A DNA stretch of 64,000 nt from Diplonema papillatum (lineage: Eukaryota > Euglenozoa > Diplonemea > Diplonemida > Diplonemidae): assembly GCA_030068145.1 (NCBI GenBank), contig JAPJBO010000343.1, positions 62,001 through 126,000 on the forward strand, in the 5' to 3' direction. Positions 5,278 to 55,590 of this stretch are shown here, in pieces (within the stretch, counting starts at the first letter, position 1; each line of letters opens with the position of its first letter). Position numbers and translations under genes: made by a program. The notes beneath the pieces were generated by a model. The model made no database searches and had not been told where the DNA came from. It worked only from the letters and a program-made list of their open reading frames with translations.

Positions 5278-5592
5278 AAAGTATGCCAATACTGCAGGGA
5301 ATAGTTGACTAGACCTCTTGAGTTTGTGCTAACCACGAATTGGGGAGTCGGGAGAACCTACAAAGCCAAAAGCAGGACCGACCCCCCGTTCGTGAGAAAA
5401 AGCGAAGAATAAAAACACCTTCTTTTTCGTAGTAACAATTAATTGTAAACACGAAAGAGAACGCTGGCAGCGTGTTTGGGAGAAGATTAGCCTACCGATC
5501 GTATTCACTCACTATCACTCACTAACAGGCTAATCCTCCCCCGGCACGTACAAACAAATATCTTTGTCAAGAGCTGCAACTCAACTATTCTT
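5278..5592 (+). repeat. Family R8 element with a nested R7 repeat
   Basis: R8 begins with a conserved ATACTGCAGGGAATAGTTGA and ends with CAAGAGCTGCGACTCAACTATTC, so its ends form imperfect inverted repeats (GAATAGTTGA / TCAACTATTC followed by CTCTTGA-type pairs). Here its interior is interrupted by an R7 copy (about 5421-5560). Other R8 copies are at 11505-11670, 16508-16820, 19658-19890 and 21315-21498. Length without insertions is about 160-180 bp, consistent with a MITE. No clear target duplication was found. Confidence 0.65.
5421..5560 (+). repeat. Dispersed repeat family R7, copy 1
   Basis: R7 starts with TTTTTCGTARTAACAATTAATTG (an AT-palindrome) and runs through CGCTGGCAGCGTGTTTGGGA. 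It contains an internal inverted pair (GATTAGCCT ... AGGCTAATC) and ends GGCACGTACAAACAAA. Copies also occur at 6590-6770 (minus), 59508-59612, and split across 44395-44413 and 46075-46230, where a larger element has inserted. Confidence 0.75.
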
Positions 5593-6589: not shown

Positions 6590-6770
6590 AACGAATGTCA
6601 GTCCGAGTTAGTGCCATGTTTTTGTTTGTACGTGCCGGGGGAGGTTTAGCCTGTTAGTGAGTGATAGTGAGTGAATATGATCGGTAGGCTAAACTTCTCC
6701 CAAACACGCTGCCAGCGTTCTCTTTTGTGTTTACAATTAATTGTTATTACGAAAAATCGTCCATTCGGGA
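6590..6770 (-). repeat. Dispersed repeat family R7, minus-strand copy
   Basis: On the minus strand this reads TTTTTCGTAATAACAATTAATTG, then the CGCTGGCAGCGTGTTTGGGA block, and ends GTACAAACAAAAACATGGCA. The uninterrupted TTTTTCG-TAA-TAACAATTAATTG at its head is the same sequence that is split by the 1.66-kb element at 44414-46074, so it acts as a paralogous empty site. Confidence 0.75.
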
Positions 6771-14191: not shown

Positions 14192-15211
14192 TGGTACCCC
14201 CGAAAACCGAGGTTTCGAAGTACGCAAGGACTCCGCACAAACTACGCAAGACGAAGGGGAAGCGCGAAGCCCCCAGCCCGGACGGATCAACAAGACGCAA
14301 GACCAGGCGACCAAGAGAAGGAAGGGGACGCGACCCAGAGACCCGAGCTATGTAGCTTGGAACTAGTGTGATGGACCTTTCTTCGGAGGGGCTCACGCAC
14401 TCAAAGATCGACATATACGCACAAACCACGCAGGAACTACGCAATACGGGGTAGGGCTACATTTTGATACTCCACATGCAGCTGGTGGCTAACTGAGTGT
14501 CTAAACGGTCGTCACAGGGCTTGCCACTGCGGCCAAAGAAAGTCCAGTGCTCTTATAAAATGTAGCCCTCGCCGTTTCACAGGAACTACGCAATACGGGG
14601 TAGGGCTACATTTTGATACTCCACATGCAGCTGGTGGCTAACTGAGTGTCTAAACGGTCGTCACAGGGCTTGCCACTGCGGCCAAAGAAAGTCCAGTACT
14701 CTTATAAAATGTAGCCCTCGCCGTTTCACAGGAACTACGCAATACGGGGTAGGGCTACATTTTGATACTCCACATGCAGCTGGTGGCTAACTGAGTGTCT
14801 AAACGGTCGTCACAGGGCTTGCCACTGCGGCCAAAGAAAGTCCAGTACTCTTATAAAATGTAGCCCTCGCCGTTTCACAGGAACTACGCAATACGGGGTA
14901 GGGCTACATTTTGATACTCCACATGCAGCTGGTGGCTAACTGAGTGTCTAAACGGTCGTCACAGGGCTTGCCACTGCGGCCAAAGAAAGTCCAGTACTCT
15001 TATAAAATGTAGCCCTCGCCGTTTCACAGGAACTACGCAATACGGGGCAGGGCTACATTTTGATACTCCACATGCAGCTGGTGGCTAACTGAGTGTCTAA
15101 ACGGTCGTCACAGGGCTTGCCACTGCGGCCAAAGAAAGTCCAGTACTCTTATAAAATGTAGCCCTCGCCGTTTCACAGGAACTACGCAGTATGGAGTTTT
15201 CGGGTGTACCA
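14192..15211. mobile_element. Family R10 TIR element carrying a satellite array
   Basis: The ends are tGGTACCCCCGAAAACC and its inverted counterpart GTTTTCGGGTGTACCa, flanked on both sides by ACATT (14187-14191 and 15212-15216), a possible 5-bp target duplication. After the left end comes a block shared with the other R10 copies (GACGAAGGGGAAGCGCGAAG ... GACGCGACCCAGAGACC ... CTTTCTTCGGAGGGGCTCAC), then five tandem 149-bp units. No complete transposase is present, so it is non-autonomous. Related elements are at 23904-24467, 39297-39617 and 54606-55590. Confidence 0.75.
14431..15178. repeat. 149-bp satellite array, five units
   Basis: Units start at 14431, 14580, 14729, 14878 and 15027 with CAGGAACTACGCAATACGGG, so the period is exactly 149 bp. 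Units are nearly identical (one or two substitutions). Each unit has inverted ends: AGGGCTACATTTT near its start and AAAATGTAGCCCT near its end, so each monomer can fold as a long hairpin. The same monomer forms a six-unit array at 54642-55535, 40 kb away. Confidence 0.9.
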
Positions 15212-16989: not shown

Positions 16990-17430
16990 TTATGTATTGG
17001 CGTCGGTCACAGAGTCACAAAGTTGGCTTGCGCTACGAACCGCCGCCTGGCTGAAAACAGGGTGGGCGTTTTTAGAGAGTAGGGTAACTTGAGAGACTAG
17101 ATTTTTCAAGCGACACTCAACTGCTGATGGGCACGGGCAAACCCAGCCCGCTAATGCGTTCGACGACCTGATGAGTCTCACGCTTTTGCAAATCCCATTG
17201 ACTATCGCCTCTGGCTCGGCCTTCAGGGTTCCCAGAGCCAAGACATCCGCCGATAAGTGCAATTGAATGTCACCCTCGATCAACCGCAGTTGAGCCGAGG
17301 GGAACAGTTGTTTTGCCTTAGAGATCCGGGTCTCCGGGTGTTTTTGGGGGCTTTCGCCGGCATCGAATGGTGGCGTTGGCCGTCGTACCAACGCAGCGGC
17401 GCGCTTCACGTGCAGTCGATTAGTCGATTA
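16990..17430 (-). pseudogene. Protein-like minus-strand frame without ATG (uncharacterised)
   Basis: This frame of about 145 codons runs from an in-frame stop near 17430 to a TAA at 16990. It contains no upstream ATG. The middle (SAQLRLIEGDIQLHLSADVL and following) has ordinary globular-protein composition, unlike most frames here. Its last 30 codons lie in sequence resembling repeat R6. I recognise no family. It may be an exon or a decayed transposon-encoded protein. Confidence 0.25.
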
Positions 17431-44027: not shown

Positions 44028-44413
44028 ACCGGGGTAGACCGGGGGGAAAAATAAAAAAAGTCGTCGGAAAAACGCAAAACACAGCGTTTCCAGGAAGGTT
44101 ACTTTTGGACAAAGTTGCGGTGGTGTATCAGCTCCGCCCCGAGCCACCGAACGAAAGCGCTGACCAAACCGACCCAGGACCACCCCCCACAAACGGTCAA
44201 TATCTGCAAACCCCTGGAACCTCTTGAACTAATACCCTGACCTTTAACTCTAAAAAAAAAAAGGGTAATGTACAGATATATATATGTGCACTGTATTGTT
44301 TTTTTTTTTTTTTTTTTTTTTTTTGCAAATATATGCATGTTCGTACAAACATGCATATATTTGCAAAAAGAACTTAAGTTTTTTTTTTACAAATATGTGC
44401 ATCTTTTTCGTAA
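44028..44413. repeat. Poly-T and perfect AT-rich hairpin, then R7 head
   Basis: An R1-like tail (TGACCTTTAACTCTAAAAA) lies at about 44238-44262, and a T-run at 44299-44324. A perfect 17-bp stem follows (GCAAATATATGCATGTT at 44325-44341, inverse at 44348-44364, 6-nt loop). Related AT-rich sequence occurs at 46300-46400. The last bases, TTTTTCGTAA, are the head of an R7 repeat interrupted by the next element. Confidence 0.65.
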
Positions 44414-45014
44414 GGGTAGGCGGTTTTTTTTTTTTGGCCCATGTCCGTCGGCCCACAGAAATTTACGCGCGCGCGCGCAAAAAAAAAACTTTTCAGAAAA
44501 AAAAAACTTTTGCCACAAGACTTTCTGCTACTGGATGTCACACCATATGTGCCGGCTATACTACTGGCCAGTCCGCTGTTGGCACTTTTGTGCCCGTTGT
44601 TGGTAGAATTTCTGGACGATGAGCTCAAAGGTGAGTGTGAAGATGAACTTAATGTGTCCGAGGGGTTGCGGTGGCAGTCTAGAGTTCAACAGTCCTGAAC
44701 GCCGCGCGGGGTGCGTTTCGACAAAACCTTCCATAGTCGGAGGCTGCAGATGATAGACGATGCCACAGGAGAAAAAACACTCGGGTTTGAACTCGAGATC
44801 GCGGTTCGCTGGGTACGCTGCGAACAATAAAGCAGTGACCCAGAGGACTGTCGATTGCGCGGGTGTCCGTCAATCTCTTATCTCTCTTCTGACATGCCCC
44901 ATTGCGATGTCACGGTCCTACCGAACCACCGTGCGAGAGCCTACTGACGGCTGGTCGGTGGCATTTCCATCGGCGAGAATAAGCGCCAGCTACCCGCAGA
45001 TAGTATGGTGAACT

Positions 45015-45278
45015 TCAACTTCTGCTTTCCTCCACCTTGTGCAAGGATGGTTGCTCTCGCGGCTTCTGCGGCGGTCTGCTGTTGAAACCCCCAAAGGCGG
45101 ACGTCGACACCGTCACTTCGGGTGTAGTGGCTTTGTCAATATTACCCGAGTACACAAAGATGCCCTGCTTGGTGTAAACGGAGTTTGTCGGTACTCTGCC
45201 GACCCTCCTGTCAGCAAGCTTTAGCCAGTGGCCACCTTCTGATGCGTAGCAAACGGCGCCGGACTCACAAGATGTACC
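45015..45278 (-). pseudogene. Coding-like minus frame inside the Harbinger-like element, part B
   Basis: This frame of 87 codons lies between stops and has no Met at all. It contains CYASEGGHWLKLADRRVGRV and TKQGIFVYSGNIDKATTPEV and has a balanced globular composition. No family is recognised. It could be an internal exon or decayed piece of the element's own protein. Confidence 0.3.
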
Positions 45279-45401
45279 TCACCCACATCGAAAGAGACCA
45301 TTGATGTCTCGACATCCGCACGGAGGGCAGGTGCTTCTAGCACACGGCAATTGGTTAGACGCCGTGTGCAACGAAGGCAGTTATGCTCAGGGATGTGCGG
45401 T

Positions 45402-45737
45402 CTAGACTGTCAGGCGACGAGTGCCGTTTTCTTCGCAAATATACCGCGGCACAAGGCATTGCCGCCGGTCAAGTGCACTAAGTCGCAAGCACCGTGAACG
45501 CATCGCTTGCCCCGCGTCCTTTTCATGCCTCCTCAGTCGAGTCTCAGATACTAGTAGCTGCTTGAGGCGTCGGAAGGCATAGACGCGTGCACTGCCCCGG
45601 ACTGGTTCTGTGTGATAATCGCACCACAGTGGCAAAACCTCCCGACATGCCTTGCCGGTAAAACCGCGCACACTTTCGAGGCTGAGGCTGTGCTTGTATC
45701 CCGCGTGCTTCGACTGCGTCCAGCAGGAGCTACGCAA
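45402..45737 (-). pseudogene. Coding-like minus frame inside the Harbinger-like element, part A
   Basis: This open frame of about 111 codons contains VREVLP-type Arg/Leu-rich sequence and YAFRRLKQLLVSETRLRRHE. It has no ATG at its start and no recognised domain. Just upstream (about 45760-45850) another frame includes CIDFEADYARCWVGALGKQY. The frame changes suggest decay or short introns. Confidence 0.25.
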
Positions 45738-46074
45738 ATCTTGCTGTTTAGATTGACACCAACGTCAAAGTAGCACGATATTGCTTGCCCAGCGCACCAA
45801 CCCAGCACCGGGCATAGTCAGCTTCAAAGTCAATACACACTGAGGTAAACAAAGTCTACGCGATTTGCATCGCCGTGAAGTATCGGTGTGATGAACAGGT
45901 TTTCGACTTTTCGCGAGCCGGACACGCTCGTGACTACGCCTGCAGTCGCTCTCACGACCGGTTCCAATGCACAGATCCCAAAAGTTTTTTTTTGGCAAAA
46001 GTTTTTTTTTTCCGGGGGTTCCCAAAAATTTACGCGCGCGCGGACATGGGCCAAAAAAAAAAAACCGCCTACCC

Positions 46075-46230
46075 TAATAACAATTAATTGTAAACACGAA
46101 AGAAAACGCTGGCAGCGTGTTTGGGAGAAGATTAGCCTACCGATCATATTCACTCACTATCACTCACTAACAGGCTAATCCTCCCCCGGCACGTACAAAC
46201 AAAAAATGTCACTAACTCGGACTGACATCC
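46075..46230 (+). repeat. R7 copy, right part after the insertion
   Basis: It reads TAACAATTAATTGTAAACAC through CGCTGGCAGCGTGTTTGGGA to GGCACGTACAAACAAAAAAT and GTCACTAACTCGGACTGACA. The last segment is shared with the minus-strand copy at 6590-6620, so the repeat extends beyond the ACAAACAAA tail. Confidence 0.75.
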
Positions 46231-48506: not shown

Positions 48507-49206
48507 GCTGTCCTGTCTGCAGACACTCAGGTTCCGCGCTGATGATGCTCCGCCTCATGTGCACGTGGTTTAAAGGACCGAGGCGCAGACGGGACCAGTG
48601 CGGTGTTGAGCACATATCCATTCCAAGCACGTTCTTGCAAGCCCCACTCTCCAGACGGCTACGAACAGCCGCCTGACAAACCGGACTCACACCTGCTGTC
48701 CTGTCTGCAGACACTCAGGTTCCGCGCTGATGATGCTCCGCCTCATGTGCACGTGGTTTAAAGGACCGAGGCGCAGACGGGACCAGTGCGGTGTTGAGCA
48801 CATATCCATTCCAAGCACGTTCTTGCAAACCCCACTCTCCAGACGGCTACGAACAGCCGCCTGACAAACCGGACTCACACCTGCTGTCCTGTCTGCAGAC
48901 ACTCAGGTTCCGCGCTGATGATGCTCCGCCTCATGTGCACGTGGTTTAAAGGACCGAGGCGCAGACGGGACCAGTGCGGTGTTGAGCACATATCCATTCC
49001 AAGCACGTTCTTGCAAACCCCACTCTCCAGACGGCTACGAACAGCCGCCTGACAAACCGGACTCACACCTGCTGTCCTGTCTGCAGACACTCAGGTTCCG
49101 CGCTGATGATGCTCCGCCTCATGTGCACGTGGTTTAAAGGACCGAGGCGCAGACGGGACCAGTGCGGTGTTGAGCACATATCCATTCCAAGCACGTTCTT
49201 GCAAAG
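48507..49206 (+). repeat. 188-bp tandem array of R6, three units plus a partial
   Basis: Units begin GCTGTCCTGTCTGCAGACAC at 48507, 48695, 48883 and 49071, so the period is exactly 188 bp, and the last unit is truncated after TTCCAAGCACGTTCTTGC. Units are almost identical. Open frames within are repeat products, not genes. Confidence 0.9.
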
Positions 49207-54605: not shown

Positions 54606-55590
54606 AGTAACGAAGTACGCACGAACTCCGCACAAACTATGCAGGAACTACGCAATACGGGGTAGGGCTACATTTTGATACTCCACATGCAGCTGGTGGC
54701 TAACTGAGTGTCTAAACGGTCGTCACAGGGCTTGCCACTGCGGCCAAAGAAAGTCCAGTACTCTTATAAAATGTAGCCCTCGCCGTTTCACAGGAACTAC
54801 GCAATACGGGGTAGGGCTACATTTTGATACTCCACATGCAGCTGGTGGCTAACTGAGTGTCTAAACGGTCGTCACAGGGCTTGCCACTGCGGCCAAAGAA
54901 AGTCCAGTACTCTTATAAAATGTAGCCCTCGCCGTTTCACAGGAACTACGCAATACGGGGTAGGGCTACATTTTGATACTCCACATGCAGCTGGTGGCTA
55001 ACTGAGTGTCTAAACGGTCGTCACAGGGCTTGCCACTGCGGCCAAAGAAAGTCCAGTACTCTTATAAAATGTAGCCCTCGCCGTTTCACAGGAACTACGC
55101 AATACGGGGTAGGGCTACATTTTGATACTCCACATGCAGCTGGTGGCTAACTGAGTGTCTAAACGGTCGTCACAGGGCTTGCCACTGCGGCCAAAGAAAG
55201 TCCAGTACTCTTATAAAATGTAGCCCTCGCCGTTTCACAGGAACTACGCAATACGGGGTAGGGCTACATTTTGATACTCCACATGCAGCTGGTGGCTAAC
55301 TGAGTGTCTAAACGGTCGTCACAGGGCTTGCCACTGCGGCCAAAGAAAGTCCAGTACTCTTATAAAATGTAGCCCTCGCCGTTTCACAGGAACCACGCAA
55401 TACGGGGTAGGGCTACATTTTGATACTCCACATGCAGCTGGTGGCTAACTGAGTGTCTAAACGGTCCTGACAGGGCTTGCCACTGCGGCCAAAGAAAGTC
55501 CAGTAAACTTATAAAATGTAGGCACTCGCCGTCTCACAAACCCCGCACGAACAACGTAGGAACTACGCAACACGGGCAATTCGGGTACCA
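54606..55590. mobile_element. Family R10 element with satellite array, left end eroded
   Basis: AACGAAGTACGCACGAACTC (R10 subterminal sequence) is followed by the satellite array and the R10 right side (AGGAACTACGCAACACGG, then TTCGGGTACCAC). The left GGTACC end is missing or unrecognisable. Confidence 0.6.
54642..55535. repeat. 149-bp satellite array, six units
   Basis: Units start at 54642, 54791, 54940, 55089, 55238 and 55387, an exact 149-bp period. The first five match the 14431-15178 array almost base for base. The sixth is slightly diverged (CGGTCCTGACAGG, CAGTAAACTTATAAAATGTAGGC). Confidence 0.9.

Follow-up and report, generated by a model that had tools for sequence, protein, structure and literature searches.

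The locus analysed here raises the question of what kind of element occupies positions 44414-46074 of the window (the whole stretch of 64,000 nucleotides that was analysed) and which machinery could have brought it there. The host is Diplonema papillatum, now Paradiplonema papillatum, a marine single-celled flagellate. We consider it probable that the element is a non-autonomous DNA transposon of P. papillatum, large and MITE-like, of the PIF/Harbinger type. Membership in PIF/Harbinger appears well supported by structure, namely by the target-site duplication and the terminal inverted repeats (TIRs), with the proviso that the start of a TIR and a TWA duplication do not prove a superfamily.

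Structure of the element and its empty sites

The copy of the element in the window measures 1,661 bp (44414-46074) and is bounded by perfect 34-bp TIRs, the left one at 44414-44447 on the plus strand and the right one, its inverted match, at 46041-46074 on the minus strand. The TIR starts with GGGTAGGCGG, the first base being G, and carries a run of 12 T at both ends of this copy. Sequence comparison identified the trinucleotide TAA on either side as the target-site duplication (44411-44413 and 46075-46077, both on the plus strand), so that the ends described in the initial annotation (perfect 34-bp TIRs, 12 T, TAA duplication) were recovered in full between 44411 and 46077. The TIR halves GGGTAGGCGG and GGCCCATGTCCG have no further exact copy within the window, and their near matches there are within chance. 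Imperfect inverted similarity of the two ends reaches approximately 99 bp at 81%, delimiting a left extended inverted repeat with subterminal A/T-run motifs (44414-44512, plus strand) and a right one (45979-46074, minus strand). The interior between them (44513-45978) includes a core of 470 bp (44934-45403).

Two uninterrupted matches to the joined flanks of this copy were found in the window, in agreement with the earlier proposal of empty-site paralogues, the positions of which had to be moved by a few bases. The first (6595-6756, minus strand, 96.3% over 162 bp) carries TAA once and, as read from the sequence, has the junction TTTTTCG-TAA-TAACAATTAATTG at about 6756-6734 on the minus strand rather than at 6747-6770; the second (5421-5558, plus strand, 97.8% over 138 bp) carries the variant TAG, its junction lying at about 5423-5445 rather than at 5415-5440. 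Homology on the left side of these sites amounts to only about 10-12 bp, TAA included, and the window copy is therefore inserted close to the edge of a host repeat. Among the matches listed, empty sites spanning the junction were also found for three other family copies, L005 (62352-62467, minus strand, 97.4% over 116 bp), L059 (38303-38404, minus strand, 96.2% over 106 bp) and L065.

Other features of the window were recorded alongside. Tandem arrays of a 149-bp unit with the same printed consensus lie 40 kb apart at 14431-15188 and 54642-55538, and a 188-bp array occupies 48507-49205. A proteasome frame has its best solved-structure matches in 9f9p and 6qm7, which we take to be kinetoplastid structures, and these matches fit a euglenozoan. 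Pieces of 28S rRNA with a 5.8S match are located on the minus strand at 1304-1575 and 17111-17261, about 16 kb apart; approximately 3,600 scattered 28S pieces are described from the P. papillatum genome (PMC10161547), and the available part of section 8 of that paper makes no mention of isolated 5.8S copies.

Copies, target sites and family groups in the genome

Searching the Diplonema papillatum assembly (271,365,524 bp in 2,910 contigs) with the TIR pattern, its middle being variable, gave 496 matches, compared with none for the reversed control; if most of these ends are paired, copies with intact ends number somewhat under 250. With the whole element as query, 679 first-look candidates were obtained and 40 of them were scored; these 40, among them the window copy, all match at 99-100% and each cover at least 1,634 of the 1,661 bases. 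For the analysis of the ends 40 further stretches were added, of which 39 had been chosen among the TIR matches listed and one came from the whole-element search; the complete set of loci yielded 44 TIR-to-TIR stretches, spanning 983-3,427 bp. One of them (L047_472_2693), being a lone 94-bp element end joined to a neighbouring full element, was dropped and stands outside the duplication counts, leaving 43 elements.

Identical 3-bp flanks were present in 39 of the 43 elements (20 TAA, 17 TTA, one TGA and one TTG), while the flanks were mismatched in the remaining four (TTA/TAA in L048 and L049, TAA/TTA in L004 and TAC/TAA in L078). Two expectations of the initial annotation, that the TIR would lead to other copies in the genome and that these would be flanked by TWA, hold in the sample, 37 of the 39 duplications being TAA or TTA and their length being three bases. 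Controls and flank-base counts were run on 42 elements, leaving out the mismatched L078_3768_4750, which is still counted in the 39 of 43. Shifted registers yielded 1-3 matches, and re-paired flanks match in 19.1 cases on average with a maximum of 29, compared with the 39 observed; a 4-bp duplication was found in none of the 42 elements, and a 2-bp duplication fits just two of them, L048 and L049, both with TA. The flanks are AT-rich and show a weak palindromic preference, with C at the third base to the left in 19 of 42 elements and G at the third base to the right in 20 of 42 (background in the flanks about 16-17% each). The base directly left of the target, taking both orientations, is A in 27, G in 21, C in 21 and T in 9 of 78 cases.

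A different target rule for L048 and L049 was considered and set aside, inversion or ectopic recombination seeming likelier. This is clearest in L048: because stretches of one satellite lie in opposite orientation on its two sides, an inversion between copies is suggested there. At another locus (L053:529-5191) three family members stand in tandem with only TAA between them, as if later copies had entered the duplication beside an earlier one.

Segmental duplication or an assembly artefact, instead of transposition, might in principle have multiplied most of these copies, since the authors of the genome paper caution that repeats may have been duplicated or collapsed artificially (PMC10161547) and the position of L048 between oppositely oriented satellite arrays would agree with such an origin. 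Examination of the flanks makes it extremely improbable: the 42 pairs of flanks (12 + 12 bases) include 41 different ones, what is missing from the empty paralogues is precisely the element with one of its duplications, and the sole shared pair, that of L006 and L063, encloses elements of different types. In these two copies the 12-base flanks are identical and the left flanks are about 86% alike, and the comparison of the right flanks reported no long match; their shared flanks are compatible with a repeat that has a favoured insertion site, and a rearrangement may be an alternative origin.

Since divergence did not separate the copies usefully, they were grouped by the 470-bp core, which is complete in 16 of the 44 stretches (at 99.8-100% in 15 and at 90% in one) and present in part in four, and was not found in 24. 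There are two main groups, the window type, which keeps the core, and another without it. Comparison of 15 core-full with 23 core-less stretches, out of 42 alignable ones and with L051, L064, L074 and L078 set aside, gave mean pairwise differences over a segment of about 460 bp of 0.144% and 0.378% within the groups, respectively, and 2.85% between them. In 14 aligned window-type copies no column was parsimony-informative and the copies were 0-27 gap columns apart; 12 of the 13 others differ from the window copy by 1-4 substitutions and the remaining one by 16, in a sample biased toward identical copies, as eight of the 14 are best-scoring matches. Because the window-type copies are nearly identical and share no informative substitution, recent bursts from one or a few source copies would account for them. 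Older and more divergent members also exist (L051, L064, L074 and L078). The recent insertion proposed in the initial annotation thus finds agreement in the near identity of the copies; the equal T runs on which it had been based do not date the insertion, because 12/12 is the commonest state, seen in 19 of 43 measured stretches.

When seven elements, most of them selected because they are long, were analysed for tandem repeats, six (L041, L042, L039, L040, L060 and L043) proved to have an internal minisatellite near one element end, with units of 30/32 bp repeated about 4 to about 41 times; the seventh, L044, is of the window type and has none. This minisatellite is a possible seed of satellite DNA. 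Other insertions were seen inside family members: 482 bp at element positions of about 1582-2064 in the window-type copy L044, and one nested at L070:424-1943, whose ends read CAGTGTGG and whose duplication, of about 7 bp, is TCTAGAC; from these traits we assume it to be hAT-like.

Coding capacity and proposed mode of movement

The interior frames of the window copy had been described as protein-like, a description that the present analysis does not sustain. Open stretches of at least 60 aa overlapping the element number 22, with lengths of 60-120 aa, and the longest, 120 aa, is no longer than expected, 323 of 500 dinucleotide shuffles reaching 120 aa as well. Scanning ten of the interior open segments against Pfam yielded no transposase, the sole match being NEMO with an E value of 0.12. 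The other option in the initial annotation, that of a non-autonomous element, agrees with these results, the shuffles and the scan of ten segments giving no sign of coding capacity. One could still regard the interior as the remains of a decayed transposase gene or other protein-coding transposon, given that open stretches of 60-120 aa are there; the shuffle test and the near-empty Pfam scan, which covered ten of the 22 segments, speak against it and render it very unlikely.

We also examined whether longer members of the family could be the autonomous partners. Thirty frames from longer and single-ended copies and their flanks (ten from nine loci, ten from L039, and ten from L068, L072, L073 and L075) contained no Pfam transposase. 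The longest copy, L039 (3,427 bp), was discarded as autonomous partner, its extra length consisting of the minisatellite and a different, nested insertion; its ten frames gave no transposase and one weak match to Ubiq_DUF_assoc (E = 0.087). This nested insertion, at element positions of about 968-2832, has inverted 30-bp minisatellite ends, a flanking duplication of about 10-11 bp as read by eye and scanned frames without a Pfam transposase; from its ends and duplication we presume it to be Mutator-like. The single-ended copies were likewise discarded as long autonomous copies, the scanned frames of L068, L070, L072, L073, L075 and L077, a part of the open frames at such loci, being without a transposase. 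Other Pfam matches were Exo_endo_phos in L077 (E = 1.1e-4, below its cut-off) and OTU in the flank of L005. In none of the sampled copies did a scanned frame match a transposase.

According to the mechanism that we propose, the element would carry only its ends, that is, TIRs and subterminal repeats, to which a transposase encoded elsewhere, presumably of the PIF/Harbinger type, would bind in trans. This enzyme would excise the element by cut-and-paste and insert it into an AT-rich TWA target with a stagger of 3 bp, the three bases becoming duplicated.

The same ends might instead be served by a transposase of another lineage, perhaps an undescribed one, that likewise duplicates 3 bp at a TNA target; a NuwaII-like member of PHIS and a lineage specific to euglenozoans are examples. 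No transposase is linked to the ends of the element, TGA and TTG occur besides TWA (two of 39 duplications), and NuwaII is reported with TNA targets and TIRs starting with GG in the parts of the literature available (PMC4482050), all of which would suit such a lineage. The predominance of TAA and TTA among the matching duplications (37 of 39) points away from it, and in the case of NuwaII the flanking C and G are not the rule in this family, C being found on 21 of 78 sides. On balance we find this alternative unlikely, and we continue with a PIF/Harbinger-type element mobilized in trans as the preferred reading.

Significance and comparison with known systems

The record of class II elements in Euglenozoa is thin. 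Among the DNA transposons of P. papillatum the genome paper names TATE, MULE and Helitron (PMC10161547), and in its main text, so far as available, the terms Harbinger, MITE and "terminal inverted" are absent. In the portions of the literature that were accessible, Merlin is reported from Euglena gracilis, Bodo saltans and Perkinsela (PMC8101967), trypanosomatids are reported to be without class II elements (PMC12278014), and the open-access work on DNA transposons of Euglena mentions Harbinger only in passing. No report of a PIF/Harbinger-like element in diplonemids was found in the open-access literature, and what we describe is an element of an ordinary type, from a lineage for which no such report was found there. 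P. papillatum is stated to be amenable to genetic manipulation (PMC12621601), and a young and numerous TIR family in a manipulable diplonemid would serve as an insertion marker. Such a family would likewise allow the proposal that unusual introns arise from MITE-like elements to be put to the test. A more far-reaching possibility, which we hold to be unlikely, is that of a PIF/Harbinger-type system that is active now or was so until very recently, the first in Euglenozoa, with a transposase of an undescribed lineage and with G/C-rich ends that would make it a candidate source of nonconventional introns.

In the accessible parts of its description, PIF/Harbinger is characterized by TWA duplications and by TIRs that are mostly shorter than 60 bp and usually begin with A or G, and the hosts named are plants, fungi and animals (PMC4482050). 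The element resembles this superfamily, including its Tourist-like MITEs such as mPing, in the 3-bp TWA duplication, the 34-bp TIR starting with G, the numerous non-coding copies and the precise paralogous empty sites. It differs from it in the long T run inside the TIR, in the diplonemid host, and in that no transposase or Myb-like partner has so far been tied to it. Autonomous members of PIF/Harbinger have a DDE transposase together with a Myb/SANT protein. MITEs are usually short, under about 0.8 kb, and Tourist-like MITEs are usually shorter than this element. The absence of coding capacity, the many near-identical copies and the conserved ends are nevertheless MITE-like, whereas the length of the element (1,661 bp, with 983-3,427 bp in the family) exceeds that usual for MITEs.

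The start of the TIR with GG is a feature shared with NuwaII and ISL2EU of the PHIS superfamily. NuwaII is described, in the available text, as using a TNA target with C directly to its left and G directly to its right (PMC4482050), a C|TNA|G context that is not the rule in this family. The same partial source gives 2-bp AT duplications for ISL2EU (PMC4482050), unlike the present family, in which a 2-bp duplication fits only the two elements with TA. Finally, MITE-like sources have been proposed for the nonconventional introns of euglenids and hemistasiid diplonemids in those parts of the literature that were available (PMC12621601, PMC6221363), and the element is similar to such proposed sources in its inverted G- and C-rich ends and in its diplonemid host.
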